37,655 nucleotides of DNA, from IMG/VR virus record IMGVR_UViG_3300030109_002360, positions 1-37,655 of that record, one strand, 5' to 3'. Shown in pieces: positions 1-25,299 of the stretch. Position 1 is the stretch's first letter; every line of letters starts with the position of its first letter. Source of the stretch: a virus. The notes under the pieces were generated by a model. It made no database searches and was not told the origin of the DNA. It saw nothing but the letters and a program-made list of their open reading frames with translations. The position numbers were made by a program, and so were the translations under genes.

Positions 1-77
1 TCAGCATCTACAACTGTAATAGAACCACCAACTGATGTACCACCATCAAGTAAGTTAAGTTCAGATGCAGTAGAAGT
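1..77. repeat. 77-bp exact direct repeat, copy 1 (copy 2 at 36663-36739)
   Basis: Positions 1-77 are identical to 36663-36739 and diverge at position 78 (t versus a). If 37655 is joined to 1, the identity grows by one base. Both copies encode the same fibre segment, ending in LLDGGTSVGGSITVVDA. The window begins exactly at this repeat, which is what a circular assembly cut at a repeated k-mer would look like. Confidence 0.9.
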
Positions 78-11282: not shown

Positions 11283-13207
11283 TCTTCTTCCAGTCCTATA
11301 CTTCTAAGTAATTGAGTTCTTTCACTTTGGGCTCCGGGTCTGGGTGCTGCCGTGTTCATGCCTTGGTTAGGTGATGGAGTATTCGGTATGCCTCCCATGG
11401 CTGCATTAGGCATGACCTCTGGTCTTACTCCATTCGATGTAGGGGCTCCCTGCTCAGGGGGTGCCATTGGTTGCTGCATCTGTCCATATTGTTGCATAAA
11501 TGCCATACGTTGTGCAAGTTCCTGCATCTGTTTTTGTTCTTCTGCAGTTTTGATTTCTTGCAAGTAATGTTGAGCCATTTGCTCATCACCACTCTTCATT
11601 GCTGCAGTGTAAAGCTGAACTAACTGCATAATTGGTGTCGATGTTCTTGCAATCTGTTCGTATATTCTTTGTCTTTCTAAATCTGCATCTTGCATTTTAA
11701 GAATTCTGTCTCTTGCAAAGTCCATTGACACTAATGACTCACCAGTTGCTGTAGGTTGAGTTGCCATCTGTGCAATAGAATATCTTTGCATATCATCTTC
11801 TGGTAATGCAGGCAGTAAAGTAAATGTTAAATCACCGTGGTTTTTTATGTCATCTGGTTTTATCGGTCCGTCAAAAGGCATCTTTGCGTATGTCTTACCA
11901 GATACATTTAACTCTTTGTACCCTTTAGTTTCGTACATCATAATTAAATGTTCAAAAGACATTTCAAGTAAGTTTTGAACTGCTGTAAGTCTTGGAATAA
12001 CTTTCTGTTCTATGTTAGTTCCAAGCTGTCTCATCGCATAACCAGATATTGGTGCTTGCAATATTCCAAAAGCCTGTGGTGGTAATCCACCGTCTACTTC
12101 ATCGTCATTGATTGCACCAAGCAATACGTCTGCATCTCTTGGTGATTGTGACAACGGTAATGGCTGTACGTCTTCTTGATTTTGAGTTGACACATTTATT
12201 TGTGACCCCTTCTTTGATGGGTTGTCTTCTAATGCCTTAGTTCCGTCTAACGATGAAACCTTGTAGGCTTGGTCTACTGCTCTTGCAGCAAGTGCCATTC
12301 TGTACGAGAAAACTCTATTTTTAAACTTAATGATGTCCCTGTTAGGAGCAAAAATTGATTCTGAGAAGTCTTTTATCGGGTCTTCGATGTCTGCCATGCT
12401 ATCAATCTGTCGCATTCCTGTGTCAGATGTAGCAAGAATCGGTACACTCCCAACTGGGACAGAACATATTGGAAACATAAGTGCAAACGTATCTGCAGGT
12501 TTCTTTGCATAGTGGTCATCAATGATTACATAGTTCATGTATTTAACTTCGCCGTTTACAATCTGTCTTTCGTAACAGTCGTAAACAAACTCTACTTCGT
12601 GACCATCGTCAAGTGTGACATCGTAAAATTTAAAATTCTTGTAGGTGTCTCTTATCTCTGACCTTGTTTGAGTCATTCTGTAAGCTGCAAAGATTGGTTC
12701 TTCTTCTCCGTACTGGACAACCAAATGTCTTGGGTCTAGTGGTTTTATCTCTGCAAAAGTTTCACCATTTGGCTTCTTTCTAAGCAGTGACCTTGTTGCT
12801 ATCCTACCACCTCGTACCGTAGAGTACCAAGCAAGCTGAGGTATAAGCAATGGCTCACCTTTTCTTTGCATTCTTTTATTTATTTGCCTGTGCATTCCAA
12901 TGACTAATCTTTCTAAGTTATCGTTTGCAGCACGTTTCTGTTCGTCTGCAGCATCATTATGCACTCTTACAACTTGCTCAGAACCAGAAATAAAACTTTC
13001 TATCTTGTCTGCTAATGTTCTCATTGAGTTAGTTGTGTAAGCATCCTCTGGGTCGACACCTTCTTCTTCGTCTGGCACAAAGTGAGTTAATCTCCATGTG
13101 GAGTAATCTATGTCCATTCTGTCGTGTAAGGGTTGGTCTTGGTCAAATAGTGTTTCTATTTTATTTAAAACATCACCAACTATTTCGTCTTGTGTCTTTC
13201 TAGCCAT
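11279..13207 (-). CDS. Portal (head-to-tail connector) protein
   Basis: 642 residues, a normal size for podovirus portals. It has a charged N-terminal region (MARKTQDEIVGDVLNKIETL), a wing region with PQLAWYSTVRGGRIATRSLL and IKPLDPRHLVVQYGEEE, a crown/stem region with PQAFGILQAPISGYAMRQLG, and a Gln/Met/Pro-rich C-terminal tail (about residues 555-640). It starts on the stop of the terminase large subunit (TAATG) and precedes the internal protein genes. It forms the packaging channel at one capsid vertex. Confidence 0.88.
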   Translation of the reverse strand: MARKTQDEIVGDVLNKIETLFDQDQPLHDRMDIDYSTWRLTHFVPDEEEGVDPEDAYTTNSMRTLADKIESFISGSEQVVRVHNDAADEQKRAANDNLERLVIGMHRQINKRMQRKGEPLLIPQLAWYSTVRGGRIATRSLLRKKPNGETFAEIKPLDPRHLVVQYGEEEPIFAAYRMTQTRSEIRDTYKNFKFYDVTLDDGHEVEFVYDCYERQIVNGEVKYMNYVIIDDHYAKKPADTFALMFPICSVPVGSVPILATSDTGMRQIDSMADIEDPIKDFSESIFAPNRDIIKFKNRVFSYRMALAARAVDQAYKVSSLDGTKALEDNPSKKGSQINVSTQNQEDVQPLPLSQSPRDADVLLGAINDDEVDGGLPPQAFGILQAPISGYAMRQLGTNIEQKVIPRLTAVQNLLEMSFEHLIMMYETKGYKELNVSGKTYAKMPFDGPIKPDDIKNHGDLTFTLLPALPEDDMQRYSIAQMATQPTATGESLVSMDFARDRILKMQDADLERQRIYEQIARTSTPIMQLVQLYTAAMKSGDEQMAQHYLQEIKTAEEQKQMQELAQRMAFMQQYGQMQQPMAPPEQGAPTSNGVRPEVMPNAAMGGIPNTPSPNQGMNTAAPRPGAQSERTQLLRSIGLEEE

Positions 13208-14625
13208 TATCTAAATCTCGTCACTGGGATAACTTCCCTTTGATAGTTTTCATTACCGGCATATCCAAACTGATTTACCATCAGATAAGTTAATGCCTTT
13301 ACAGCATGATTATACTTGTCTCTCGGAACATTTCCAACTACCCCACCTTCTCGGTTCATTTGCCAACTATAAACTCTGACCTGTCCGTCAAACGGATTTG
13401 GTCCTCCTCCAAGTTCAGAAATCAGTCCTTTGCAAGTAGGGTCAATGACTAATCCGGGCTCTAAGTCTATTGGGTCTGGCTTGAGCATACTATTCATTCT
13501 CTCGATGCCGTCAATAATCTTTACGGGCTGACTTTGCATAATTAAATTTGCTTCTTTGAACCATATCTCAGTGTTTGATGGCATGGCTCCGGCGTGTGCA
13601 TTTCCTGCAACGTCAATTACGCCAAACTTATCCGTGTTATTCCACCAAAATCTTTTCTTGGCTACCTCGATTATGTCGGAAGCAATCAATTCTCTCTCAT
13701 AAATTTCGTCAAATACCTGCACTTGCCCATCAATTATGTGGCACACCTCAACGGCATACGCACTTTCGGTCATCCTAGAATAGCCGGGGTCGACTGCAAG
13801 ATACACAATCTCGTCTGGGTCATACTCAACTTCTCTCACATGAATGTTTACATTAAATGACGGATGCACCAATCCACTTGGAGGACTTGGGATTCCGGCG
13901 ACACGTTCATTAAACCATTCATCGGAATGCTCAGTTCTCATCTTTTCTATTTCAGGGTCATCCTCTCCCAACGGAAATATATGTGTATTAGTCCATGTAG
14001 GTAGTGAAAAACTTTTCGCACTCTCTAAATTTTGAATACCCGGTGATTGCCATGACGTAAATTGTTGGGGGTACCATCCTAGACTTCCCTCAAAAGTACC
14101 CTCTAGGAATACCCAACCACGCTTTTCTGCCACTCTCTCCATCAATCGCCAGTAACTTTCTTGGTCTAACTGCGAAGCCTCACAAGCAACGATGCCCATC
14201 GGGGCTTCCATCGCAAGTTTTCTGTAGTCAGTCGCAGACTTAGTCTTGATAATCAACGGTTTTAGGTTCTTAGAACCAACGGACACCTCAATGTATCCGG
14301 GGTCTACCTGACGTGTGGCACGTTTAATTATACCTAGCCTGTTGAAGGCATCTCCAAGATAGTCAAACTCACCCCTAGTTCTCTCGTAATCTGCAGCAAC
14401 TAGCCAATAAACACTGCCAGAAGCAGCATCAGGGTCCTCGACAATCTTAGCCATAATCTTTTCAAACATATACATAGCCCCAAGGTTAGACTTACCTGCT
14501 CTTACGCCACCGGCAACTAGTTTGAATCTAGCATCATCATTAAGAATATCAAGCTGGGCAGCCGTAGGTGTGTAACCTATGGCACCGAATAGAGCATCAC
14601 GTTGTTCATGTATCATGAAACACAT
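13207..14625 (-). CDS. terL: Terminase large subunit
   Basis: 472 residues. Walker A is GGVRAGKS (residues 39-46). The Walker B region is GIVACEAS with Glu149, and a coupling-type motif EGTFEG lies at 175-180. The nuclease domain begins with YLAVDPGYS (Asp279), continues with GVIDVAGN (Asp338), and has a late Asp in VPRDKYNHAVKALTYLM. It packages DNA using ATP and cuts concatemers. An alternative start is the Met five codons in (MIHEQRD); no clear Shine-Dalgarno separates the two. The 400-bp G-rich gap lies just upstream. Confidence 0.95.
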   Translation of the reverse strand: MCFMIHEQRDALFGAIGYTPTAAQLDILNDDARFKLVAGGVRAGKSNLGAMYMFEKIMAKIVEDPDAASGSVYWLVAADYERTRGEFDYLGDAFNRLGIIKRATRQVDPGYIEVSVGSKNLKPLIIKTKSATDYRKLAMEAPMGIVACEASQLDQESYWRLMERVAEKRGWVFLEGTFEGSLGWYPQQFTSWQSPGIQNLESAKSFSLPTWTNTHIFPLGEDDPEIEKMRTEHSDEWFNERVAGIPSPPSGLVHPSFNVNIHVREVEYDPDEIVYLAVDPGYSRMTESAYAVEVCHIIDGQVQVFDEIYERELIASDIIEVAKKRFWWNNTDKFGVIDVAGNAHAGAMPSNTEIWFKEANLIMQSQPVKIIDGIERMNSMLKPDPIDLEPGLVIDPTCKGLISELGGGPNPFDGQVRVYSWQMNREGGVVGNVPRDKYNHAVKALTYLMVNQFGYAGNENYQREVIPVTRFR

Positions 14626-15027: not shown

Positions 15028-15036
15028 TTACGCCGT
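15010..15036 (-). terminator. Hairpin overlapping the terminase small subunit stop
   Basis: ACGGCGT (15010-15016) pairs perfectly with ACGCCGT (15030-15036) around a 13-base AT-rich loop. The stop codon of the small terminase gene (15028-15030) lies at the edge of the right-hand arm. No T-run follows in the minus direction, so an mRNA 3'-end or attenuator role is likelier than a strong terminator. It could also be part of a protein-binding site in the adjacent gap. Confidence 0.5.
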
Positions 15037-15546
15037 GTCCTCTATTGGCTTTTTATCTTCTGAAATTGGCACATTTATATTTATTAAAGCTTGGATTAGG
15101 GCATTTGCTTGGTCGTCAATTGTCGTCTGGTTCTTGTTATCTCCGTATCTGTCGGGGTATTTTTTAGACAGCAGCCACTGGCTATTTTTACTCTTAACAG
15201 CCTCATTCTCAGCAGTCGTTAATTCCGTTAATTGCATAGCCTCAAACTCAGTAACAGCCTCAGTAACAGTATCATGTAATTTCAGTGTCAGTTGCTTGTA
15301 TCTGTCACTAGGGTTCATATTCTTTGTATCTGTAACAGTAACAGTATCTATAGTATCTGTTTCAGTTTCTGTATCTAATGTAACTCGGACTTTTTCACCA
15401 AAACGGAGCCAACCCATTGCCACAGACTCAGAAACCCCACACCGTCTAATTATGGCACTTGTAGGGTGTAGCCCTAGCCGTTCTATATCCTGCTTAATTA
15501 AATCTATCTTTTTATTATCTAACTGTATTTTCCTGCTCATAGTCAT
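15028..15546 (-). CDS. terS: Terminase small subunit (DNA recognition)
   Basis: 172 residues. The N-terminal helix-turn-helix region (about 15-50: LGLHPTSAIIRRCGVSESVA) is followed by an odd Thr/Asp/Val linker (about 55-75), a helical oligomerisation segment, and the signature-like WLLSKKYPDRYG (about 123-134), seen near the centre of many small terminases. It is the first gene of the leftward late unit, lying upstream of terL across the G-rich gap. The start could be ATG 15546 or the next Met at 15540; neither has a strong Shine-Dalgarno site. The DNA site it binds may be in the neighbouring gap. Confidence 0.78.
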   Translation of the reverse strand: MTMSRKIQLDNKKIDLIKQDIERLGLHPTSAIIRRCGVSESVAMGWLRFGEKVRVTLDTETETDTIDTVTVTDTKNMNPSDRYKQLTLKLHDTVTEAVTEFEAMQLTELTTAENEAVKSKNSQWLLSKKYPDRYGDNKNQTTIDDQANALIQALININVPISEDKKPIEDTA

Positions 15547-15615: not shown

Positions 15616-15646
15616 TTGACATATCATATTATAGTATGTTTATAAT
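15616..15646 (+). promoter_or_regulatory. Sigma70-like promoter for the early region
   Basis: A perfect -35 box TTGACA (15616-15621) and a perfect -10 box TATAAT (15641-15646) are separated by 19 bases, slightly longer than the 17 optimum. It lies between the divergent late and early units and would start transcription near 15653, just before the long gene-free leader. The same AT-rich stretch read on the minus strand contains another TATAAT (15628-15633), but with no good -35 partner. Use of the host RNA polymerase fits the absence of any phage polymerase gene. Confidence 0.75.
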
Positions 15647-15652
15647 AGATTG

Positions 15653-16390
15653 TGGTTGTTGTTGGTAGGTTGTTAGACCCTCAGGGACTAAGCAAACATA
15701 GAAGGCTTAGGAGTCAGGCTTGAACCCTGACAAGTGGGGGCAACATGAAACGGCAGGGGGGGGAAGTCATAGAAGCCGAGTAATTCGGTCAACTCAAATG
15801 AACTTCTAGACCTGATGTGAACGCAAACGTTTCCGAGTTGTTGAGGTACTGGAAATCTAAAAGGGAAGCTACAACATAGTTGAAAAATAGTTTCTACAGG
15901 TAGGTTCAAACTGGGGTGATGTGAACTGGTCACAGAAAAAAAGACTGTTGACCCTTGGGTCATTAGTTGAATACTCATCATCTCGGTTATGGAGGGCGTG
16001 GCATTGCCCTGCTGAGATAGTCCGAAGGATTTTTATTCAAGCAATACACAACTTCTACAAATTCTGTTGAATGAGAAAAGCAGTCTTATCAATGACTAAA
16101 AGTAAAATACAAAGCTACATTATTATTTAATCTGTTGAGGTTGTCTGGTCGTGTAGTGGTTGCTAGTTACAGAAAAAATGTTTATCCAAGGGTAATTATT
16201 TGATTATGTTTTCTAGCCTAGGTCTTTGAAAAAAATTACTAAGTGAACAACTGTGAAAGTCAGGAATGAAGCCGAAACTGTGGGTGGTGTATGGTTCCAA
16301 GTGGCAACCCTTGGATTAAATTCAAAGTTTAATAAACCGAAACGAAAGAACCCAAGACAATGCCAAGCGACCCTCCAAATTGTCGCTTGG
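15653..16390 (+). ncRNA. Large structured leader RNA, about 740 nt
   Basis: No convincing gene exists between the promoter and 16436, but the DNA is dense in local inverted repeats. These include CTAAGC/GCTTAG (15688-15710), GTCAGG/CCTGAC (15713-15731), TGACCC/GGGTCA (15949-15962), ATCTC...GAGAT enclosing AGGGC/GCCCT (about 15979-16017), TCCAAG/CTTGGA (about 16296-16314) and a terminal 9-bp CCAAGCGAC/GTCGCTTGG (16363-16390). GGACTA (15685-15690) could also pair at long range with TAGTCC (16018-16023). Size, structure and phage context recall the large ornate RNAs GOLLD and ROOL, but I cannot show membership. A very long regulatory leader is the alternative. Confidence 0.6.
15928..15970 (+). 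repeat. Internal repeat of the leader RNA, copy 1
   Basis: The segment reads gGTCACAGAAAAAAAG, then CCTTGGGTCATTAGTTGA. A diverged copy lies at about 16166-16203 with GTTACAGAAAAAATG, then CCAAGGGTAATTATTTGA. The shared order of an A-run, a CCTTGG/CCAAGG core and an ATTA-TTGA end suggests a duplicated RNA structural module. Confidence 0.5.
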
Positions 16391-16404
16391 TTTCGTCTTA
16401 GTAA
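16363..16404 (+). promoter_or_regulatory. Hairpin plus CGTCTTAGTAA motif, cassette boundary 1
   Basis: A 9-bp stem CCAAGCGAC (16363-16371)/GTCGCTTGG (16382-16390) ends the leader RNA. The first copy of the repeated motif CGTNTTAGTAA follows at 16394-16404, and then a Shine-Dalgarno site (TAGGAGGA) before the first early gene. This is the first of the repeated boundary units described at 16394-22460. Confidence 0.75.
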
Positions 16405-16435
16405 TAAATTAATTCATAATTAGGAGGATAATATT

Positions 16436-16654
16436 ATGAAAGTTGACATTTCAACACTTAACAAACTGCCAAAATACAAAGAAAACCTTTTAGTGTCTGA
16501 TGATTACATTTTCAGTTACTTAACAAAGGTTGCAGTTATTGACCACGAAAAAAGAGAAATTCTAGTTGATACTTGGTTTTCTTCTACAACTTCAAAGCAT
16601 ATAAATTATGTTGGTCAGGAATACAATTACAAAGTTGTGAAATTGTATCAGTAA
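16436..16654 (+). CDS. First early-cassette protein, unknown
   Basis: 72 residues (MKVDISTLNKLPKYKENLLV...). It looks like a small alpha/beta protein with strands such as KVAVIDHEKREILVDTWF and YNYKVVKLYQ. The start has a strong Shine-Dalgarno site (TAGGAGGATAATATT before ATG) and lies 31 bases after a CGTCTTAGTAA motif. As the first gene after the main promoter it is probably expressed very early. Host takeover or anti-defence roles are common for such genes, but nothing in the sequence shows one. Confidence 0.75.
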   Translation: MKVDISTLNKLPKYKENLLVSDDYIFSYLTKVAVIDHEKREILVDTWFSSTTSKHINYVGQEYNYKVVKLYQ

Positions 16655-16659
16655 TCGGA

Positions 16660-16698
16660 GGGGGGCAATCAAGCCCCCCCCTTCAATCGTATTAGTAA
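16660..16698 (+). promoter_or_regulatory. Hairpin plus CGTATTAGTAA motif, cassette boundary 2
   Basis: GGGGGGC (16660-16666) and GCCCCCC (16673-16679) form a perfect 7-bp G-C stem around AATCAA, a few bases after the stop of the first early gene. The motif copy lies at 16688-16698. The 20-base hairpin is identical to the one at 16921-16940. Confidence 0.85.
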
Positions 16699-16726
16699 AA
16701 ATAATCATGATAAGGAGGAATTAATC

Positions 16727-16915
16727 ATGAAAAAACATTACCTAATCAAGCAAACTCATGTTAGTTATCAGTCAGCTTATGCCTCATCAAAAGCAGAAGC
16801 ATTAGAAGAAGTTAAAAATAATAGCGAAGACTTTGGAGATACTGTTTTTAATTCAAATTGGTATTTAATGGATATAAAACATAGCTTTGTTAGAAAAATA
16901 AAGAAAAAAGTTTAA
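16727..16915 (+). CDS. Small DpnD/PcfM-like early protein
   Basis: 62 residues, MKKHYLIKQTHVSYQSAYASS, then KAEALEEVK. The pattern of two short strands, then A-S-S/K-EA and a helix resembles the small DpnD/PcfM-type domain and matches the proteins at 18272 and 23635. The C-terminal end is basic (RKIKKKV). It is a single-gene cassette with a strong AAGGAGGA site after a CGTATTAGTAA motif. The molecular function of this domain is unknown to me; the family call is by eye. Confidence 0.7.
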   Translation: MKKHYLIKQTHVSYQSAYASSKAEALEEVKNNSEDFGDTVFNSNWYLMDIKHSFVRKIKKKV

Positions 16916-16920
16916 TTGGT

Positions 16921-16961
16921 GGGGGGCAATCAAGCCCCCCAACCCAACCTCGTTTTAGTAA
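16921..16961 (+). promoter_or_regulatory. Hairpin plus CGTTTTAGTAA motif, cassette boundary 3
   Basis: The hairpin GGGGGGCAATCAAGCCCCCC (16921-16940) has exactly the same 20 bases as the previous boundary and lies a few bases beyond the stop of the 62-residue gene. The motif is at 16951-16961, and AAGGAGG follows before the 27-residue ORF. Confidence 0.85.
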
Positions 16962-16979
16962 TCAATCAAGGAGGTTAAA

Positions 16980-17063
16980 ATGATTGAAGTGTCTATTAAT
17001 GATACAGGAAATATAGTAGTTACAGATAATTCTATAATTTCAATCTTAAAAGAGCAGGGTTGA
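16980..17063 (+). CDS. 27-residue early microprotein
   Basis: ATG 16980 follows a strong AAGGAGG site and the standard CGTTTTAGTAA motif, and the TGA stop (17061-17063) lies in the loop of the next cassette hairpin. The product is MIEVSINDTGNIVVTDNSII followed by SILKEQG, which suggests a short beta-hairpin and a helix. Full cassette signals on both sides make translation likely despite the length. Alternatively it is a remnant of a longer gene. No function can be assigned. Confidence 0.65.
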   Translation: MIEVSINDTGNIVVTDNSIISILKEQG

Positions 17064-17083
17064 TGACCCTGCCGTCTTAGTAA
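17054..17083 (+). promoter_or_regulatory. Hairpin plus CGTCTTAGTAA motif, cassette boundary 4
   Basis: GCAGGGT (17054-17060) pairs with ACCCTGC (17066-17072) around TGATG. The TGA in that loop is the stop codon of the 27-residue gene. The motif follows immediately at 17073-17083. Confidence 0.82.
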
Positions 17084-17112
17084 AAAATAATCATGATAAG
17101 GAGGATTTAATC

Positions 17113-17472
17113 ATGGAAACAGAAATCACAATCAAACCAACTCTTAACGACTTTGGAACTAGTTTAATTGGTCATGTAAAAATATCCTATGACAAATTAG
17201 TTTCAGTGTTTGGTAAAGAACACAGTGGTGGTTCAATGGATAACAAAACCCTTGCTAGTTGGTCAATTGAATTTCCTGACAAAACAGTTGCTACAATTTA
17301 CAACTGGAAAAACGGAAAGAATTACGACCCAGTTGATGGTTTAGATAAAGAAAATATTGATATGTGGCATATCGGAGGCAAAGATGAAAAAGCATTTCAC
17401 TACATAAGACTTTTATTGTGGGGTAAAGCTAACGCATCAGGCTTAGGATATCCACCACCATTATACCTATAA
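17113..17472 (+). CDS. Conserved-type early phage protein, unknown
   Basis: 119 residues. The central part, LASWSIEFPDKTVATIYNWK followed by NGKNYDP, and the later DMWHIGGKDEKAFHYI resemble a protein type common in phages and plasmids, whose function I do not know. The fold looks like a small antiparallel beta-sheet with a C-terminal helix. It is a single-gene cassette with AAGGAGGA before the start and a hairpin just after the stop. An early regulatory or anti-host role is possible but not shown. Confidence 0.75.
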   Translation: METEITIKPTLNDFGTSLIGHVKISYDKLVSVFGKEHSGGSMDNKTLASWSIEFPDKTVATIYNWKNGKNYDPVDGLDKENIDMWHIGGKDEKAFHYIRLLLWGKANASGLGYPPPLYL

Positions 17473-17475
17473 TAT

Positions 17476-17509
17476 GAGGGGCAAAAATGCCCCTCAATCG
17501 TTTTAGTAA
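17476..17509 (+). promoter_or_regulatory. Hairpin plus CGTTTTAGTAA motif, cassette boundary 5
   Basis: GAGGGGC (17476-17482) pairs with GCCCCTC (17489-17495) around AAAAAT, four bases past the stop of the 119-residue gene. The motif is at 17499-17509. Confidence 0.85.
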
Positions 17510-17536
17510 AAACAATTATTCATAGAGGAGGATATT

Positions 17537-17938
17537 ATGGATAAAGTAATTAGAAACCAAAGACTCGGTGAAGCTGTAGCAATTGGCATTGAAAACGGTT
17601 GCATTGAAGATATGTTATTTATTTTTGATGACGATGGATTTGTTACTGACACTGACAAAATGGCTTGGGAATACAACGACTTTGAAGACGCTTATACAGA
17701 TGAGCAAGGCGACACAATGCAAGAAGCATGGGCTAATGGAATTAGAGTTAACAACTATTGTAACTCAAAACAAAATTACTCAAATAATTACAAATTCAAA
17801 GGTGACATAAAAATTTATGGCTCAGAGTTTGGAACATCAGGCATTCATGAAATCTCTACAGTTTCTTTGAAGACTGAGAAACCAGACACCCCAGACGTTG
17901 ACACAATCGAAGAGGTAAACAATCCAGAGCAGGGCTAA
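17537..17938 (+). CDS. Acidic early protein, unknown
   Basis: 133 residues with a low predicted pI. The first half holds many Asp/Glu (DMLFIFDDDGFVTDTDKMAW, NDFEDAYTDEQGD), the middle is Asn/Tyr/Lys-rich, and the tail is a disordered Pro/Asp/Glu segment. It begins after GAGGAGGATATT and a CGTTTTAGTAA motif, and its TAA stop (17936-17938) is inside the following hairpin loop. Such acidic proteins can mimic DNA, but no specific evidence supports that here. Confidence 0.72.
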   Translation: MDKVIRNQRLGEAVAIGIENGCIEDMLFIFDDDGFVTDTDKMAWEYNDFEDAYTDEQGDTMQEAWANGIRVNNYCNSKQNYSNNYKFKGDIKIYGSEFGTSGIHEISTVSLKTEKPDTPDVDTIEEVNNPEQG

Positions 17939-17972
17939 GCCCCTGCTCGGTTGCTAGGTATCGTTTTAGTAA
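17927..17972 (+). promoter_or_regulatory. Hairpin plus CGTTTTAGTAA motif, cassette boundary 6
   Basis: GAGCAGGG (17927-17934) pairs with CCCTGCTC (17941-17948). The loop CTAAGC contains the TAA stop of the acidic protein gene, so the left arm is coding sequence. The motif follows at 17962-17972. Confidence 0.82.
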
Positions 17973-18000
17973 TAAATAAATTATTCATATAGGAGGAATA

Positions 18001-18213
18001 ATGAAAATTAATATAGAAAATAGAAAAGTTTTTGTTGGTGAAGATGGTAAAGAAATACCTTGGGAACTTTATAAAAAACTAAAACTTTTTATAGCTTGTA
18101 TTAAAAATGCAAATTTGTTTGGTGCAAATACAGAAATCTCTGACCAAACTTGTTTACGAATTATAGAATTTATACAGGATAAACCTTGGGAAAAAGACCC
18201 ATACATATTATGA
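18001..18213 (+). CDS. Small early protein, unknown
   Basis: 70 residues, MKINIENRKVFVGEDGKEIP followed by WELYKKLKLF. A short beta-hairpin is followed by helices, with two Cys (IACIKNANLF, QTCLRIIEF). The start follows TAGGAGGAATA and a motif at 17962. The TGA stop overlaps the left arm of the next hairpin. It is the only gene in its cassette. No family recognised. Confidence 0.72.
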   Translation: MKINIENRKVFVGEDGKEIPWELYKKLKLFIACIKNANLFGANTEISDQTCLRIIEFIQDKPWEKDPYIL

Positions 18214-18250
18214 GGGGCAATCATGCCCCTCCACTGTATCGTTTTAGTAA
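18212..18250 (+). promoter_or_regulatory. Hairpin plus CGTTTTAGTAA motif, cassette boundary 7
   Basis: GAGGGGC (18212-18218) pairs with GCCCCTC (18225-18231) around AATCAT. The first two bases of the stem are part of the TGA stop of the 70-residue gene. The motif lies at 18240-18250. Confidence 0.85.
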
Positions 18251-18271
18251 TAAAAAAGTATTAGGAGGATT

Positions 18272-18508
18272 ATGAATACTTATAGTTTAACAATTGGTCA
18301 TGTTTGTTATTACGATATTGAAATAACTGCATTATCAATTGAGGAAGCAAAAGCAAAAGCAATTGAATGGGACTTTGAATTCAGTTCAATGGATGACGAG
18401 AAAGTCAACAGTGCTAACGGATGTGCCGTTGTGCAAGTGATTGAAGAAGAAGGTAAACCAGACAGACTCATTATGCTACAAGAACCCAAAGTATTGGAGC
18501 AAAAATGA
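18272..18508 (+). CDS. Small DpnD/PcfM-like early protein
   Basis: 78 residues. MNTYSLTIGHVCYYDIEITA then LSIEEAKAKAI gives two strands and an A-x-S-x-E-E-A helix like the proteins at 16727 and 23635. The end is acidic (VQVIEEEGKPDRLIMLQEPK). It starts after TTAGGAGGATT and a motif, and its TGA overlaps the next start (ATGA), so this cassette holds two coupled genes. Function unknown; kinship with DpnD/PcfM-type domains is a judgement by eye. Confidence 0.72.
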   Translation: MNTYSLTIGHVCYYDIEITALSIEEAKAKAIEWDFEFSSMDDEKVNSANGCAVVQVIEEEGKPDRLIMLQEPKVLEQK

Positions 18509-18795
18509 GTAAAGAATACGAAGTATCGATTGTCTTTGGCAACAGCAAAGAAGCAAGTGTAAACAGGACTTTCAAGACACAAAGAGAAATGGAAGCATAT
18601 TTCTGTGCCTTGTTAGACATGGAAGGTTGGCTTGATTACAACTATGTTGAGGATGGCATTGATGGTTGGGTCTATCAATCAGATGGTACATGGAAACAAG
18701 AAAACGAAGAGTACACGATTGAAACTTACAACCAAAAATCACCAGAGTATTACAAGCAATTTGCAAAAGGGGAGAATGACCAAGAGCAGGAGTAA
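18505..18795 (+). CDS. Small acidic early protein, unknown
   Basis: 96 residues, MSKEYEVSIVFGNSKEASVN followed by RTFKTQREMEAYFCALLDME. The strand-strand-helix order at the N-terminus may be a distant relative of the preceding gene. Trp, Tyr and Asp are frequent in the second half. The start overlaps the preceding stop by four bases, implying translational coupling. The TAA stop lies in the loop of the following 9-bp hairpin. Confidence 0.72.
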   Translation: MSKEYEVSIVFGNSKEASVNRTFKTQREMEAYFCALLDMEGWLDYNYVEDGIDGWVYQSDGTWKQENEEYTIETYNQKSPEYYKQFAKGENDQEQE

Positions 18796-18822
18796 ATCTC
18801 CTGCTCGATATCGTTTTAGTAA
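18784..18822 (+). promoter_or_regulatory. Hairpin plus CGTTTTAGTAA motif, cassette boundary 8
   Basis: A perfect 9-bp stem GAGCAGGAG (18784-18792)/CTCCTGCTC (18798-18806) has the five-base loop TAAAT, whose TAA is the stop of the 96-residue gene. The motif follows at 18812-18822. Confidence 0.87.
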
Positions 18823-18845
18823 TTAATAGATTTCAAGGAGGAACA

Positions 18846-19346
18846 ATGCAAAAGAAATCAATCAAAGAAATTCAAGAAACTTACACAAAAAGTATACTTG
18901 AATTGGTGGATAAACTAGAAAAAAAGAATAGTGAAATCACTAAACTTAAAGCAAAAACTGAGGAGATAGAGTTTTTAAAAGATAGAGTAACATCTTTAAA
19001 AAATCTAAAAGGCTTGGATTTTTCTTGGGTGGCTATCTGGGAAGAGTCGCAAGTTTATGGTGGTGCTGAAGAAGGTGGATGGTACTTTAACCATGACTCA
19101 TTAACAGGATTGCCATTTCAAATCCCTGACGATTTAACAACAGTCGTTAAAAAATGGTTTGAAAAAGTTTATGGAAACTCAGAAATGAAAGATGTTGTGA
19201 TGAGTGATGAAGCATACCAAAGAGAGATAGAAATGTATGGAGATTTGTTAGAGCCATTGAGAGGTGAAGTAAGTGCCTCTGGTAAATTCAAATTAACATT
19301 TCATAAAGAATATCCACAAGAAGCACCTTACCCTGTTTATGAATAG
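18846..19346 (+). CDS. Early protein with N-terminal coiled coil
   Basis: 166 residues. About residues 5-55 form a charged coiled coil (SILELVDKLEKKNSEITKLK, EIEFLKDRVTSLKNL). The rest is globular, with WVAIWEESQVYGGAEEGGWY, which resembles a segment of small uncharacterised phage or plasmid proteins, and helices with MKDVVMSDEAYQREIEM. It starts after CAAGGAGGAACA in a cassette of its own. Oligomerisation through the coiled coil is likely; the function is unknown. Confidence 0.75.
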   Translation: MQKKSIKEIQETYTKSILELVDKLEKKNSEITKLKAKTEEIEFLKDRVTSLKNLKGLDFSWVAIWEESQVYGGAEEGGWYFNHDSLTGLPFQIPDDLTTVVKKWFEKVYGNSEMKDVVMSDEAYQREIEMYGDLLEPLRGEVSASGKFKLTFHKEYPQEAPYPVYE

Positions 19347-19372
19347 GGTAGGGACTATATTCGTTTTAGTAA
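19329..19372 (+). promoter_or_regulatory. Hairpin plus CGTTTTAGTAA motif, cassette boundary 9
   Basis: TACCCT (19329-19334) pairs with AGGGTA (19345-19350) around a 10-base segment that reaches the TAG stop (19344-19346) of the coiled-coil gene. This stem is weaker than its neighbours. The motif is at 19362-19372. Confidence 0.7.
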
Positions 19373-19396
19373 AACAATCCATAAAGGAGGTAAATT

Positions 19397-19681
19397 ATGG
19401 ATGTAAGAAGAATTGATTTCTTCATGTTGGGATTTATCCTAACAAGGTTAGCAGTAACACTTGAATTACAAGCACACGCAGGTTGGCACGATGTTGACCC
19501 TGAGTTTCGTAAAACTCTAAGCAAAGCAGTTGACACAGCTTTAGACTGGCATCATGTTATGTTAGATAAACAAAATCGTGGCGAGTTTGCAATGTCGATA
19601 ATTTCTGCACAACCATCTTCATTCTTTGAAGTACCATTGGGTGATAATGGTGAACTGAATGTTCAAAGCAGGAAACCATAG
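19397..19681 (+). CDS. Small helical early protein, unknown
   Basis: 94 residues. It starts MDVRRIDFFMLGFILTRLAV, mildly hydrophobic but probably amphipathic, followed by ELQAHAGWHDVDPEFRKTLS and LDWHHVMLDKQNRGEFAMS. It is probably mainly helical with several His residues. The start follows AAAGGAGGTAAATT after a motif. The TAG stop lies within the left arm of the next hairpin. No family recognised. Confidence 0.72.
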   Translation: MDVRRIDFFMLGFILTRLAVTLELQAHAGWHDVDPEFRKTLSKAVDTALDWHHVMLDKQNRGEFAMSIISAQPSSFFEVPLGDNGELNVQSRKP

Positions 19682-19712
19682 AGGGGGTAACTCCCCTCTA
19701 TCGTCTTAGTAA
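19678..19712 (+). promoter_or_regulatory. Hairpin plus CGTCTTAGTAA motif, cassette boundary 10
   Basis: ATAGAGGGG (19678-19686) pairs with CCCCTCTAT (19693-19701) around GTAACT; the left arm contains the TAG stop of the 94-residue gene. The motif begins one base later, at 19702-19712. Confidence 0.85.
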
Positions 19713-19734
19713 TAAATAAGTATAAGGAACAAAA

Positions 19735-19851
19735 GTGAAACTTAAAGTAAAAAATAAAGAAGTTTTGATGGGTTATTGTTTGATGAAAAATTGTTTGCTA
19801 AAAGCTACACGAGGTAGTTTTTGTAAGCTTCATGGTAAAAAATCGTCTTAG
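19735..19851 (+). CDS. 38-residue zinc-ribbon-like microprotein
   Basis: A GTG start (19735) follows TAAGGAAC and a CGTCTTAGTAA motif. The product contains GYCLMKNCLLKATRGSFCKL followed by HGKK, a C-x4-C-x9-C-x2-H pattern suited to one zinc ion. The TAG stop (19849-19851) is supplied by the next CGTCTTAGTAA motif itself, and there is no hairpin at this boundary. The cassette signals and the metal-binding pattern support a real gene. Its function is unknown. Confidence 0.68.
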   Translation: MKLKVKNKEVLMGYCLMKNCLLKATRGSFCKLHGKKSS

Positions 19852-19854
19852 TAA
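19844..19854 (+). promoter_or_regulatory. CGTCTTAGTAA motif without hairpin, cassette boundary 11
   Basis: This copy lacks the usual upstream hairpin and overlaps the end of the zinc-ribbon microprotein gene, whose last codons and TAG stop are read from the motif. AAGGAGGTAAA and a GTG start follow 15-25 bases downstream. Confidence 0.75.
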
Positions 19855-19879
19855 TAAACAATGTTTGCAAGGAGGTAAA

Positions 19880-20038
19880 GTGGCAAATGTTAAAAGAAAA
19901 TTGGAAGAGATACAACAAGTCTCAGAAGAGGTTGATAATTTCAATCTTATCAGTCTCATCAATACTCGTGGTGTTGTATGGGTTCAAGAAAAAATAGATG
20001 AACTCAACAAGCAACTCAAGGAGGGTAATGATGAGTAA
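19880..20038 (+). CDS. 52-residue helical early protein
   Basis: I choose GTG 19880 because AAGGAGGTAAA lies directly before it; an upstream ATG in frame would start inside the preceding gene. The product (VANVKRKLEEIQQVSEEVDN, then LISLINTRGVVWVQEKIDEL) is helical and charged, possibly a coiled coil. Its end overlaps the start of the next gene, so the two are probably coupled. No family recognised. Confidence 0.7.
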   Translation: MANVKRKLEEIQQVSEEVDNFNLISLINTRGVVWVQEKIDELNKQLKEGNDE

Positions 20039-20318
20039 AACATACAAACTTGAAGAGTATCAACAACAGACTAGGCACTATGAGATTGTTTCAAACATTC
20101 CATTACCTAAAGGAATACTAGAAGAAGTATTTTACTGGGGAGATGGTGATGATTTGGGTCAAGGTCAGGAGACTGACATGACTAGCTGTGCATGGATTGA
20201 AATCAAGAAAGACGAAACTCTTGATGATAAAGACTATGAAGGTCTTAAGGTAAAACTTCAATTCATCAAGTCAGGTGCAGGAGACTTTGCTGAACTTGAC
20301 ATAGAGGAGGTGGAGTAA
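20031..20318 (+). CDS. Small acidic early protein, unknown
   Basis: The start at ATG 20031 (MSKTYKLEEYQQQTRHYEIV) is favoured over ATG 20028 because its distance from AAGGAGGG is better. The 95-residue product is acidic, with DDLGQGQETDMTSCAWIEIK and a final DIEEVE. The frame overlaps the previous gene by eight bases, and its TAA shares a base with the next ATG (TAATG). A three-gene coupled cassette is therefore likely. Function unknown. Confidence 0.72.
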   Translation: MSKTYKLEEYQQQTRHYEIVSNIPLPKGILEEVFYWGDGDDLGQGQETDMTSCAWIEIKKDETLDDKDYEGLKVKLQFIKSGAGDFAELDIEEVE

Positions 20319-20491
20319 TGAGTGAAGAACTATATGTCCTGTACTGCATACAGTGTGGTGCTGAGGGAGATGAAGATGAGATAAGTAACGATGATTGGTG
20401 GTGGGTAACTCATGGCGATGTGATGTGTTGGAGATGTGAAAGAAGTTTATCCAAAGATAAAAGACAAAAAATAGAATTAGAATATTCATAA
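20318..20491 (+). CDS. 57-residue zinc-ribbon early protein
   Basis: ATG 20318 overlaps the previous stop, with GAGGAGG just upstream. The protein has two Cys pairs, YCIQCGAEG near the start and MCWRCERS near the end. This C-x2-C...C-x2-C arrangement is typical of a zinc ribbon, with a Trp-rich acidic linker (DDWWWVTHGD) between. It may bind nucleic acid or protein partners. It is the last gene of its cassette and is followed at once by an 8-bp hairpin. Confidence 0.75.
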   Translation: MSEELYVLYCIQCGAEGDEDEISNDDWWWVTHGDVMCWRCERSLSKDKRQKIELEYS

Positions 20492-20494
20492 AGA

Positions 20495-20532
20495 GAGGAG
20501 GCTTAAACGCCTCCTCAATATCGTTTTAGTAG
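20495..20532 (+). promoter_or_regulatory. Hairpin plus CGTTTTAGTAG motif, cassette boundary 12
   Basis: GAGGAGGC (20495-20502) pairs with GCCTCCTC (20509-20516) around TTAAAC. The motif at 20522-20532 ends in TAG instead of TAA and runs into AGAGGGCATA, which is the reverse complement of a segment just after the next gene. Confidence 0.85.
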
Positions 20533-20540
20533 AGGGCATA
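20531..20540 (+). repeat. 10-bp inverted repeat flanking the GHKL ATPase gene, left arm
   Basis: AGAGGGCATA here is the exact reverse complement of TATGCCCTCT at 21771-21780. The arms lie in the 5' and 3' untranslated parts of the same gene, about 1.23 kb apart. They could pair in the mRNA or could be short inverted ends of a transferred module; chance cannot be excluded. Confidence 0.6.
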
Positions 20541-20555
20541 ATTAAGGAGGAAATT

Positions 20556-21758
20556 ATGACTAAGAAAGTTGTAAGCAGTATTAAATCTGCATTTGAAGTA
20601 GACATCAAAGGACTCAAAGAACTATTTGGTTCTGTCCCTGCATGGAGACACGCAGTTGAACTAGTGACCAATGTGTTCGATGAATTCTTGGGCTACGTTG
20701 AAGGTGCTGTATCGCCAACCTCTTGTATTGTAGAACTTACAAAGGATGGCAACAGACCTGCACAACTTAAGGTGCAAGATGACGGTGGTGGTTTCAAAGA
20801 CCCAACCGACATCTATACTCTCTTCAGGACTACTGAAAAGAGAAACGACCCTACTGTTGCAGGTAGGTTCAATGCAGGTGAGAAACAACTCATTGCTGTT
20901 TCAAAGGAAGCTGTGATTAAGACTAGGAATTACACCGTTAGTTTCAAAGATGGTGTGAGGAATACGACTAAACACAAAGACCCTAACTACCACCAAGGCA
21001 CAACGGTTGAGGCTGTACTACCTATGGTGAAGGGAGACTTTGAAACTGCTGTGGAAATGCTGAGTAATGTAATACCACCAGAAGGCATAAGTTATGTCGT
21101 CAATGGTGAGATTATTCCAAGACCTCAGTCAAAGCACGGTGTTGAAGTAACAATGCCAACTCCAGTCTTGCAAGAGATTGATGGTATCAACGCAATGAAA
21201 AACCTACAAAGGAAAACAAAGGTGGAAATCTTTGAAGCAGAAACACCATGGCTTTATGAACTAGGTATTCCAGTGATGACCCTTGAAGATACTCAATTCA
21301 AGTATTCTTTGAATGTTCATCAGAAGATACCTTTGTCCATGAGCAGAGACTTGGTGGCTAGAAACTACATCATGAAATTGATTGGTCTAGTCAACGAGGC
21401 ATCTGCATTGGATGGTGTGATGCTTGTTGATGAGGAAGACCAAGGTGCTAATTTTGAGAAAGAAAGTATGTCCTACATCAAGGATGTAAATGCTCTTTCC
21501 AAGATACACACTTCGGTAAGACCTAACTCAATGTTGTGGTCATCTAACGCAAGTGCAAACATACAAGCACAGATGGATGGCAACGACATTGTTCAACGAG
21601 GCACTTACGATGGACCAACTTTAAAAAGATTGATGGATAGTAATATTGCTCAATCAACTAACGTTGCTTATCCAAACTTTGTGCCACCACAAGTTACACA
21701 ACAATCTGAACCAAACGTGGTGCAGTCATGCCCACAGTGTGGTTTTAGACTTAACTAA
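20556..21758 (+). CDS. GHKL-superfamily ATPase with C-terminal zinc ribbon
   Basis: 400 residues, much longer than the surrounding cassette genes. The GHKL ATP-binding motifs are visible: N box ELVTNVFDE (Glu35, Asn39, Asp42), G1 DDGGG (75-79), and G2 GRFNAGEK (103-110) followed by a helix. This is the arrangement of Hsp90, MutL and type IIB topoisomerase N-domains. The final residues carry CPQC (392-395), half of a zinc ribbon. A strong AAGGAGGAAATT precedes the start. ATP-driven conformational change on nucleic acid or a partner protein is likely; the exact role is unknown. Confidence 0.8.
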   Translation: MTKKVVSSIKSAFEVDIKGLKELFGSVPAWRHAVELVTNVFDEFLGYVEGAVSPTSCIVELTKDGNRPAQLKVQDDGGGFKDPTDIYTLFRTTEKRNDPTVAGRFNAGEKQLIAVSKEAVIKTRNYTVSFKDGVRNTTKHKDPNYHQGTTVEAVLPMVKGDFETAVEMLSNVIPPEGISYVVNGEIIPRPQSKHGVEVTMPTPVLQEIDGINAMKNLQRKTKVEIFEAETPWLYELGIPVMTLEDTQFKYSLNVHQKIPLSMSRDLVARNYIMKLIGLVNEASALDGVMLVDEEDQGANFEKESMSYIKDVNALSKIHTSVRPNSMLWSSNASANIQAQMDGNDIVQRGTYDGPTLKRLMDSNIAQSTNVAYPNFVPPQVTQQSEPNVVQSCPQCGFRLN

Positions 21759-21770
21759 ATAACTATCAAC

Positions 21771-21793
21771 TATGCCCTCTACCGTATTAGTAA
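21771..21793 (+). promoter_or_regulatory. CGTATTAGTAA motif with right arm of the gene-flanking inverted repeat
   Basis: No local hairpin follows the GHKL gene. Instead TATGCCCTCT (21771-21780) is the exact complement of AGAGGGCATA (20531-20540) at the other end of that gene. The motif follows at 21783-21793, then the next start with a weaker site (TAGGAGTC). Confidence 0.7.
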
Positions 21794-21818
21794 CAACAAG
21801 TCATAGGAGTCTATCAAA

Positions 21819-22040
21819 ATGACGAAAAAAGATTACATACTAATTGCAGCTATGCTGAAAAATGAAAGAAAGAAAGCATTGTCTGACCAAGATTACACTA
21901 GCAAAGTAAAAAACATTCTAATTACTAGTATTGCTAGACAATTATCAGATATGTTTGGTGCAAATAATCCAAGATTTGACAAGACTAAATTTGTTAAAGC
22001 TACAAACTTAACAGAAGAGGAAATGAAGTTGCCACTATGA
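21819..22040 (+). CDS. Small early protein, possibly interrupted by a TGA
   Basis: 73 residues (MTKKDYILIAAMLKNERKKA...), helical, with RQLSDMFGANNPRFDKTKFV resembling small phage proteins that pair with host or replication factors. After the TGA (22038-22040) the same frame continues for 19 sense codons, EDLIEKAAEFSIDVDEFKD, to a TAA at 22098-22100. That extension looks like normal coding sequence. The gene may have a recent nonsense mutation, a readthrough stop or simply a diverged end. Confidence 0.68.
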   Translation: MTKKDYILIAAMLKNERKKALSDQDYTSKVKNILITSIARQLSDMFGANNPRFDKTKFVKATNLTEEEMKLPL

Positions 22041-22100
22041 GAAGACCTCATTGAGAAAGCTGCTGAGTTTAGTATTGACGTAGATGAGTTCAAAGATTAA
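22041..22100 (+). pseudogene. In-frame extension beyond a TGA stop
   Basis: This is the 19-codon continuation of the preceding gene, with a helical and acidic composition matching that gene's C-terminal half. It has no start codon of its own in frame and no Shine-Dalgarno site. Readthrough or a nonsense mutation would explain it. Confidence 0.4.
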
Positions 22101-22164
22101 TATGAATTTGTGACTTTCTAGTCAACCTCAACCAAGACATTGCATTAAATAGAACTTTTGCAAA

Positions 22165-22199
22165 ACGGTGACCTGTAACAGGGTCACCGTGTCTTTTTA
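22165..22199 (+). terminator. Rho-independent terminator
   Basis: A perfect 9-bp stem ACGGTGACC (22165-22173)/GGTCACCGT (22182-22190) is followed by GTCTTTTTAG. This is the best classical terminator in the early unit and lies after the interrupted gene. The T-rich end (TCTTTTTAG) looks like a variant of the cassette motif, hinting that the motif may derive from terminator tails. Confidence 0.8.
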
Positions 22200-22209
22200 G
22201 GAAACAATT

Positions 22210-22434
22210 ATGAAACAAGTATTTATTTATAAAACACAGGAGATTGTAACTCTGGTATCACAGAACCCAGAGGCAAGAAGTTTTATAGCAAATAATGTTG
22301 ATAAGAAACAATGGGCTTACAAGGACCCCAGTGATATTCACAACTCACCAATCATTGTGAACCCTGATTTCTACATACCAATCATTGGCATTCTCAAGAC
22401 TAACAATTTTGATGTTGCAGTGAATGGTAAATAA
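22210..22434 (+). CDS. Small early protein, unknown
   Basis: 74 residues, MKQVFIYKTQEIVTLVSQNP. It looks alpha/beta with PSDIHNSPIIVNPDFYIPII and a Val/Ala end. The Shine-Dalgarno site is weak (TTAGGAAACAATT), unlike other cassette genes, and the gene lies directly after a strong terminator. It may therefore be expressed from read-through or a separate start. No family recognised. Confidence 0.65.
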   Translation: MKQVFIYKTQEIVTLVSQNPEARSFIANNVDKKQWAYKDPSDIHNSPIIVNPDFYIPIIGILKTNNFDVAVNGK

Positions 22435-22449
22435 GAGTATAGTAAAAAA

Positions 22450-22460
22450 CGTTTTAGTAA
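22450..22460 (+). promoter_or_regulatory. CGTTTTAGTAA motif without hairpin, last typical copy
   Basis: This is the fourteenth and last standard copy. It lies between the 74- and 182-residue genes with no clear hairpin upstream. An AAAGGAG site follows before ATG 22486. Confidence 0.75.
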
Positions 22461-23832: not shown

Positions 23833-24407
23833 TTGAAAAGAAAATTATAACAATACTTAAGGACAAGTCTGAGATATCTATTGCAGGTATCTCAGATGCA
23901 GTCGGTGTCTCAAAGAGGTCAGTACAAAGAAAGTTAAAGGTAATGATGGCTGATGGGTTAGTTGATAGAATAAGCAATAAAACAGGAAGAGGTAACGTTC
24001 AAGTGTATGAAATAAAGGGTGACAAAAAGGGTGACAAAAGGGTGACAGAAGAGACATGGATAGACAGATTCAATAGTTTCTGTAACAAGTTACTAGTTAC
24101 TAAAGATACTAAGTATCTAACAGAGAGACAGATACAATTTGTCAAAGACGAATTTAAAGATAAGAACATAGAATATATTGTTGAGGAGTTTTGTTCTTAC
24201 TGGGAGGTGGCTAACAAACCAAAAACATTTGTCCCATACTTGAGGTTGAGGACATGGCTAAGAAAGGCAAAAGAATATGAAAGAAATGAAATACGACCAA
24301 CTGGTCAAAAAACTGCAAAAGGAAGAAGACTCAGCGATAGTTCGGGGAACAAGTTTAAAGATTCCAAACTCAATGACCTCGCCAGAAGAAGTCAAAGCAT
24401 TCACTAA
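23829..24407 (+). CDS. Winged-helix protein, probable replication initiator or DnaD-like protein
   Basis: 192 residues. The N-terminal 60 form a winged helix (IAGISDAVGVSKRSVQRKLK, then a wing with ISNKTGRGNVQVYEI). A Lys-rich linker (GDKKGDKR) leads to a helical domain with FVKDEFKDKNIEYIVEEFCS then YW, and VPYLRLRTWLRKAKEYE, like the C-terminal part of DnaD-type or other phage replication proteins. It lies directly before the helicase loader. The last 130 bases overlap that gene in another frame, so the tail beyond about residue 150 may be dispensable. Confidence 0.75.
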   Translation: MIEKKIITILKDKSEISIAGISDAVGVSKRSVQRKLKVMMADGLVDRISNKTGRGNVQVYEIKGDKKGDKRVTEETWIDRFNSFCNKLLVTKDTKYLTERQIQFVKDEFKDKNIEYIVEEFCSYWEVANKPKTFVPYLRLRTWLRKAKEYERNEIRPTGQKTAKGRRLSDSSGNKFKDSKLNDLARRSQSIH

Positions 24408-25299
24408 AGAATTGATAGAGGTCTGTCTTCCGGGTGAACTTACACCATTAGATGCAGTTGAAGCAGGTTATCCTGCAATACCATGGAAGAGATTACCCAA
24501 GAGTGTAAGAAATGAAGTGGATATTTTAGTGTCAGAGAGACACACAAAGAACATAAGAGACCTGAATGAAAGAGCCAAGGCAAACGCAGGTAAGGCATTC
24601 AAGACACCAACGGTGTGTGTTTGCAGTGGATTGGGTTGGGTCACAGGACTTTTTCCTGTCGGCGACCCTAACTTTGGCAAGGCATTTCCTTGTGTATGTA
24701 AATCTAACAAGACTGATTACAGTAAGTACCTCTGGGAGGTATCAGGTCTTGGTGAGACAACATTCCAAAGATTTAATAATTATGAACTGAGGACCGATGA
24801 GTGCAAAGTTGCAAAGGATTCTGCATTTAGTTGGGCAAGTGGAGACAAAAGTCCATGGATGGTTATGCTTGGCAATGTTGGTGTTGGTAAGACTCACCTT
24901 GCAAAAGCATCTGTTTCTTGGATAATTGGAAGGAAAGAGATGGTTGTCTATATGACATCAGCAGAACTCGCATCAAAGGTTAAATCCATGATGGATACCA
25001 ACAAGTATGATGAGTATGTAAACCACCTTAAGAATGTAAAGCATCTAATCATTGATGACTTGGGCAGAGAATACTCAACTGACTATGTCAGGTCTCTGTT
25101 CTATGAGATATTAGATTACAGGTACTCAAGAAGAATGAGGACTATGATTACATCTAACTTTTCTTTGGATGAACTGGAGCAAGTCTTTGACTTTGCTGTG
25201 GTAGATAGATTCAAAGATGTGATGGTCAGCACGCTTGTAGTTCTTGGTGAGACTGAAAGCATGAGGCAGGAGGAGAGGAATGAACTACCATGGGAGTAG
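24277..25299 (+). CDS. DnaC-type helicase loader ATPase
   Basis: 340 residues. The AAA+ core has Walker A GNVGVGKT (199-206), Walker B HLIIDD (256-261), sensor TSN (292-294) and a likely Arg finger in VVDRFKD (Arg311). Upstream, CVCSGLG (Cys114, Cys116) and PCVCKS (Cys139, Cys141) could bind zinc, as in many phage DnaC-like proteins. It would load the host replicative helicase, since no phage helicase or polymerase is seen. The start at ATG 24277 overlaps the previous gene by 131 bases; a later Met (24372) would shorten the overlap. Confidence 0.88.
   Translation: MKEMKYDQLVKKLQKEEDSAIVRGTSLKIPNSMTSPEEVKAFTKELIEVCLPGELTPLDAVEAGYPAIPWKRLPKSVRNEVDILVSERHTKNIRDLNERAKANAGKAFKTPTVCVCSGLGWVTGLFPVGDPNFGKAFPCVCKSNKTDYSKYLWEVSGLGETTFQRFNNYELRTDECKVAKDSAFSWASGDKSPWMVMLGNVGVGKTHLAKASVSWIIGRKEMVVYMTSAELASKVKSMMDTNKYDEYVNHLKNVKHLIIDDLGREYSTDYVRSLFYEILDYRYSRRMRTMITSNFSLDELEQVFDFAVVDRFKDVMVSTLVVLGETESMRQEERNELPWE

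Follow-up and report, generated by a model that had tools for sequence, protein, structure and literature searches.

What occupies the gap between the divergently oriented late and early genes of this phage, and is its product a functional RNA? The window, i.e. the whole stretch of DNA analysed, is a 37,655-base IMG/VR virus record derived from an uncultivated phage. Late genes are read leftward, the early operon is read rightward from position 16436, and a leader region separates the two. The earlier note had described the leader as a large structured non-coding RNA, and strong, strand-specific covariation, with which a hold-out test on the leader of contig L017 agrees, upholds this description. 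The share of the genome taken up by the leader, which had been offered as an argument, could not by itself have shown function. The features discussed are collected in Table 1; the start of the RNA was deduced from the position of the promoter, and its 3' boundary was set at the first cassette motif. Elsewhere in the window, a repetitive, fibre-like open frame of at least 749 aa runs off the end of the sequence (3-2249, minus strand), and the plus strand GTG ORFs in the same interval are its shadows. The early region includes genes for a DnaC/IstB-like helicase loader (24277-25299, plus strand) and for a PD-(D/E)XK nuclease with weak similarity to Cas4 (25596-26348, plus strand).

Table 1. Location of the leader, of its parts and of the flanking genes in the window
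Feature	Position	Strand	Remarks
Large terminase	13207-14625		late genes, leftward
Small terminase, by position	15028-15546		adjoins large terminase
Early promoter	15616-15646	+	direct reading; -35 kept at same place in relatives
Structured non-coding RNA	15652-16404	+	196-pair consensus, 40 covarying pairs, alifold z -8.1, hold-out
Helix 1, 5' strand	15652-15662	+	pairs with 16048-16058; encloses domains 1 and 2
Domain 1, exchangeable 5' module	15663-15838	+	local hairpins covary
Domain 2	15839-16046	+	closed by 15839-15843 / 16042-16046
Domain 3, conserved 3' domain	16060-16404	+	common to type A, type B, L011, L017
UUACUAAGUGA	16236-16246	+	complementary to motif UCGUCUUAGUAA (16393-16404)
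AACTGTGAAAGTCAGGAATG	16249-16268	+	in domain 3
GNRA-tetraloop hairpin CCAAG-U-G[GCAA]C-C-CUUGG	16297-16314	+	covariation
Terminal hairpin	16362-16391	+	4 covarying pairs; CCUCC in loop
First cassette motif CGTCTTAGTAA	16394-16404	+	opens the set of 14 on the early strand
First protein-coding cassette	16436-16654	+	72 aa, PHROG 5643

The promoter had been called perfect. This holds for the hexamers, since TTGACA (15616-15621) and TATAAT (15641-15646) are both exact, and does not hold for the spacing, which is 19 nt; the promoter was accordingly missed by a scan admitting spacers of 16-18 nt. The TTGACA hexamer is retained in most relatives, where the -10 is weaker and found at ~18 nt, and the distant relative L024 carries TTGACA-17-TATAAT. 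The region that follows lacks, as had been noticed, any credible ORF. The longest frame on the plus strand encodes 50 aa, ORFs vary in length and position among homologues and none is conserved, and a minus-strand ORF of 97 aa falls in a domain replaced in close relatives. The first gene behind the leader varies between relatives while the leader is retained, and the leader is therefore not a gene-specific switch.

Homologues were searched by using the terminase as query, and 33 IMG/VR loci were retrieved. A clear leader is found at the same place in 15 contigs, i.e. the window and 14 others (L006, L013, L033, L007, L020, L008/L041, L011, L010, L005, L025, L030, L021, L022 and L017). An additional, distant leader resides in L024, and L009 and L012 are cut by the contig end. 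The RNA spans ~640-780 bases across the phage and about fifteen relatives, and has been seen only directly behind the early promoter, and nowhere else. BLASTN comparison of the window to 50,697 phage records gave no match. Two pattern scans with leader sequences, a scan for the end element and searches with two early-gene proteins added no contigs, and because all these scans were empty the known family is narrow. It also includes few independent lineages, as several homologues are near-identical. A host search in GTDB genomes and phage isolates returned only remote TerL relatives. More distant TerL relatives feature gaps of 0.5-1.3 kb at the same place, none of which matches a model of the 3' domain of the leader. 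In L103, L109, L112, L113 and L118 the gap is AT-rich and non-coding, extends for 0.9-1.3 kb from the gene upstream of TerL to the early genes, and hosts iteron-like TGTACATAAAC repeats and a AAAAAACCT..AGGTTTTTT hairpin; these gaps are perhaps origins or operators. One distant group gave a strong alifold z, and was considered as a carrier of the same RNA. It was not counted as such because of its iteron-like TGTACATAAAC repeats and of a hairpin that is bidirectional, in AT-rich DNA.

The check proposed in the earlier note, i.e. the collection and alignment of homologues and the analysis of their covariation, was carried out on seven aligned type-A leaders, folded by RNAalifold. Covariation was assessed by shuffle, slide and hold-out tests. 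In the consensus fold 95.7% of the cells pair. The pairs which have undergone double changes number 40, as against 15.7 +/- 2.5 in shuffled alignments (0/500) and 4-10 when the structure is slid along the alignment. Energy z-scores relative to column shuffles are -8.1 for the plus strand and -3.6 for the reverse complement of the whole leader. In the short 3' alignment taken alone the two strands score alike (-6.6 and -5.9), and the strand is therefore assigned from the leader as a whole and from the promoter. Since the consensus fold had been derived from the same sequences on which it was scored, a hold-out test was added, in which the fold obtained from six leaders was tested on the seventh and most diverged, L017. 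In the latter, 147 of the 191 pairs are preserved, more than the 135 reached at most under the null; among the 34 doubly changed pairs 26 are preserved, whereas 2000 null trials gave 10.4 on average and 20 at most. When nine 3' domains of all types were compared by using a hand-drawn 34-pair model, 9 double-change pairs were counted, versus 4.5 +/- 1.2 in shuffles. The single-sequence MFE z of the window leader is modest (-2.14), and the case for structure is carried by comparison, not by energy. With a covariation-supported fold of several hundred nt, the leader would belong, by kind and not by family, among the large structured phage non-coding RNAs.

The RNA is predicted to consist of three domains, two upstream domains which are exchangeable and a 3' domain which is constant. 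Domain 1 is flanked by the 5' strand of helix 1 and by the closing helix of domain 2, and is found in two very different versions in type-A leaders, and in a third in type B. As an example, L013 and L033 share 32-38% identity within domain 1, and 90-100% beyond its boundary. Domain 2 includes helices at 15864-15895, 15909-15988, 15943-15968 and 15991-16012, and 13 covarying pairs, 2 of which in the closing helix. It has been replaced as a block in L011: domain 1 of this leader is ~94% identical to that of the window, domain 2 only 30-48%, and the two sequences converge again in domain 3. In turn, the type B leaders of L005, L030 and L021 show clear sharing in domain 3 only. The swaps begin and end at closing helices and domain limits, and recombination edges thus follow the domains of the RNA. 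A possible long-range pair had been anticipated. The helix closing domain 2, which spans ~200 nt, covaries and meets this expectation; the longest one, helix 1, does not substantiate it, since it is present in 7 of 7 type-A leaders but invariant in sequence, and hence unproven, and single-sequence partition functions mostly favour other partners for its strands. The resemblance of GAGATAGTCC to the S element of group I introns was also examined; the sequence is actually part of a local hairpin (16016-16034), and no Rfam intron model matched.

In domain 3, the GCAA loop of the tetraloop hairpin is invariant, the closing pair is G-C, C-G or U-A, and 5 of the 6 pairs covary. The UUACUAAGUGA segment may pair with the motif of the leader itself, forming a helix which may close the 3' part of the RNA; 97% of the cells are paired, with no double changes. 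Both the 9-bp hairpin and the cassette motif that had been placed at the end of the region are confirmed: the hairpin arms are CCAAGCGAC (16363-16371) and GTCGCTTGG (16382-16390), and the motif heads a series of copies on the early strand, spanning 16394-22460, one of which carries a mismatch. In the whole window 16 matches were found at up to one mismatch, versus 2.3 expected, and 11-13 copies are present in 6 of 7 relatives; L024 has only 2 exact copies. Downstream of most early genes lies a stable hairpin, followed a few nt later by CGTNTTAGTAA, and then by an AGGAGG-type ribosome site; the variant ATAGTTTTAGTAA takes the place of CGTNTTAGTAA in L024. The hairpin and CGTYTTAGTAA element found at the end of the leader also ends each following gene cassette, and the leader thus looks like a cassette having RNA as its product. 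The element forms a modular cassette boundary, with processing, termination or promoter activity as candidate roles. No claim is made on the CCUCC loop as an anti-Shine-Dalgarno sequence, because CCTCC is also found in other cassette hairpins. A 28-aa ORF in L024 (8124-8210, minus strand), flanked by cassette boundaries and provided with its own ribosome site, includes two CxxC pairs (MICAFCKLLRSIKPEIIDADCVLCNTAD) and possibly encodes a mini zinc-ribbon protein.

Membership in the GOLLD or ROOL classes had been floated, along with the alternative of a new class. Searches with Rfam 15 at the gathering score gave no match in the window or in six relative loci, and up to E = 10 nothing meaningful emerged in the leaders of the window, L024 and L005, which represent three leader types. 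Best matches in the window have E values of 0.88 or worse, far below gathering. The best match in any homologue locus, caiA in L024, scores 24.6 bits against a gathering threshold of 55.5, and spans the 3' end and the first ribosome site; it resembles the layout of a hairpin and a ribosome site, and is not a match. FuFi-1, also below threshold in L024, was not reproduced in the window or in L005. Both caiA and FuFi-1 were reportedly described by Weinberg et al. in 2017. With no covariance model of GOLLD, ROOL, OLE, group I and II introns or any other Rfam 15 family matched, the leader is not a recognised member of any of these groups. The first suggestion thus falls, and the leader probably represents a new family of large phage RNAs.

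On sequence grounds, the comparisons establish a conserved, strand-specific, modular RNA of predicted structure, devoid of coding content and invariably placed first in the early operon. The reading that we favour, with confidence somewhat above even, is that an RNA gene of the phage occupies 15652-16404, is transcribed from the early promoter ahead of all other units, and acts through its folded RNA. Covariation, the hold-out result, the strand preference, exchange blocks matching domains and the shared end element all support it. According to this reading, the early promoter would transcribe the RNA-gene cassette first in infection, and the three-domain RNA would be set off from the mRNA cassettes by the shared hairpin and CGTYTTAGTAA element. 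We infer that the RNA is made early, released as a discrete molecule at the cassette boundary, and acts in trans. Early in infection it would probably serve as a scaffold or binding RNA, as suspected for GOLLD and ROOL, with the constant 3' domain and its GNRA tetraloop as a plausible common core, and upstream domains which may carry partner-specific or defence-driven variation. A more speculative version, advanced tentatively, envisages a new class in which the 5' domains bind different host or defence targets, the constant 3' core with its GNRA loop performs the shared task, and the RNA is the first gene expressed.

The fixed site directly behind the early promoter would also suit a cis-acting leader, the main rival to the RNA gene, though on the whole an unlikely one. 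Such a leader would control the whole early operon, e.g. through put- or EAR-like antitermination at the cassette hairpins, through attenuation or through mRNA stabilisation. It would fit an element found in a fixed place, at the head of ~14 cassettes, most of them having a stable hairpin upstream of the motif, and kept whatever gene comes first; promoter-like sites in the leader and cassette region are not in excess (17 found, 18.2 expected), in line with the same view. Yet, known antitermination RNAs are far smaller, put and EAR measuring ~70 and ~120 nt, respectively. Cassette hairpins have no clear U-tracts, and hence may not terminate at all, and the block exchange of two domains is unexpected for a dedicated polymerase-binding element.

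Less probable by far is an antisense regulator, in which UUACUAAGUGA would pair in trans with the UCGUYUUAGUAA of each cassette, in the manner of P4/P1 c4-type RNAs. The complement of the motif is kept in type A and partly in type B and L011 leaders, and an antisense role has been suggested for the PLE ncRNA (PMC7567579). However, the energy of the duplex is no better than in shuffled leaders (26/200 in the window, worse in the others), the match is absent from L024 and L017, and UUACUAAGUGA can pair with the motif inside its own leader. Very improbable, too, is that the locus is a DNA element, such as a replication origin or operator, or specifies a primer RNA such as RNAII, structure being a by-product. 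The junction of divergent early and late genes, the DnaC-like loader of the phage and the repeat-rich, iteron-like gaps at the same place in more distant relatives would be in keeping with this; no direct-repeat array was found in the leader, however, and strand-specific structure and covariation downstream of a conserved promoter argue against it. An unrecognised coding region or an ordinary unstructured spacer is hardly credible, and already refuted by covariation, ORF comparison and the L017 hold-out: open frames exist (121 aa in L007 and L020, and the minus-strand frame of the window), but are not conserved, L033, which has the same module, having at most 57 aa on the plus strand, and covariation excludes a neutral spacer.

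Few big RNA classes still lack a known function, and the large ornate RNAs of phages are among them. To these the leader family, read as an RNA gene, adds a member whose context is defined, at the start of the early operon, and whose domain boundaries are clearly marked by natural recombination. Ready-made chimaeras and a small constant core are thereby provided, which make function testable by domain swaps. GOLLD RNAs are large (often above 800 nt), ornate and phage-borne, with a conserved 3' region and a less conserved 5' region (PMC12286853), and are often near tRNA genes. The leader is likewise large and phage-borne, and its 3' region is conserved and its 5' region variable. Unlike GOLLD, it opens the early operon, has no Rfam match and no nearby tRNA genes, none of which were found in the window. 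ROOL, a large multi-helix phage or prophage RNA without known protein partner (PMC12286853), resembles the leader in being large, multi-helix and phage-borne; the leader differs in having no Rfam match and in not being near tRNAs. The PLE IIR ncRNA and the P4/P1 c4-type antisense RNAs are complementary to the leaders of genes of their own element (PMC7567579), in contrast to the leader described here, whose complementarity to the cassette motif is not above chance. The nearest precedent in size is the ICP1 lncRNA, ~800 nt long and encoded between gp139 and gp140, near lysis genes (PMC7567579, PMC9040626), which is the most abundant transcript of the phage (PMC7567579). It resembles the leader also in filling an ORF-less gap of a lytic phage, but is not an early leader, and did not match the 3'-domain model. 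In position, the nearest precedent is provided by mycobacteriophages L5, D29 and StarStuff, in which a ~500-nt non-coding RNA, the most abundant phage transcript, fills the gap between the early promoter Pleft and the first early gene (PMC5712189); this RNA was not detected by the 3'-domain model either, and the part of the published account considered here mentions no fold supported by covariation. Taken together with the RNAs of ICP1 and of L5/D29, the leader suggests that a long non-coding RNA at the start of infection may be a recurrent phage strategy.
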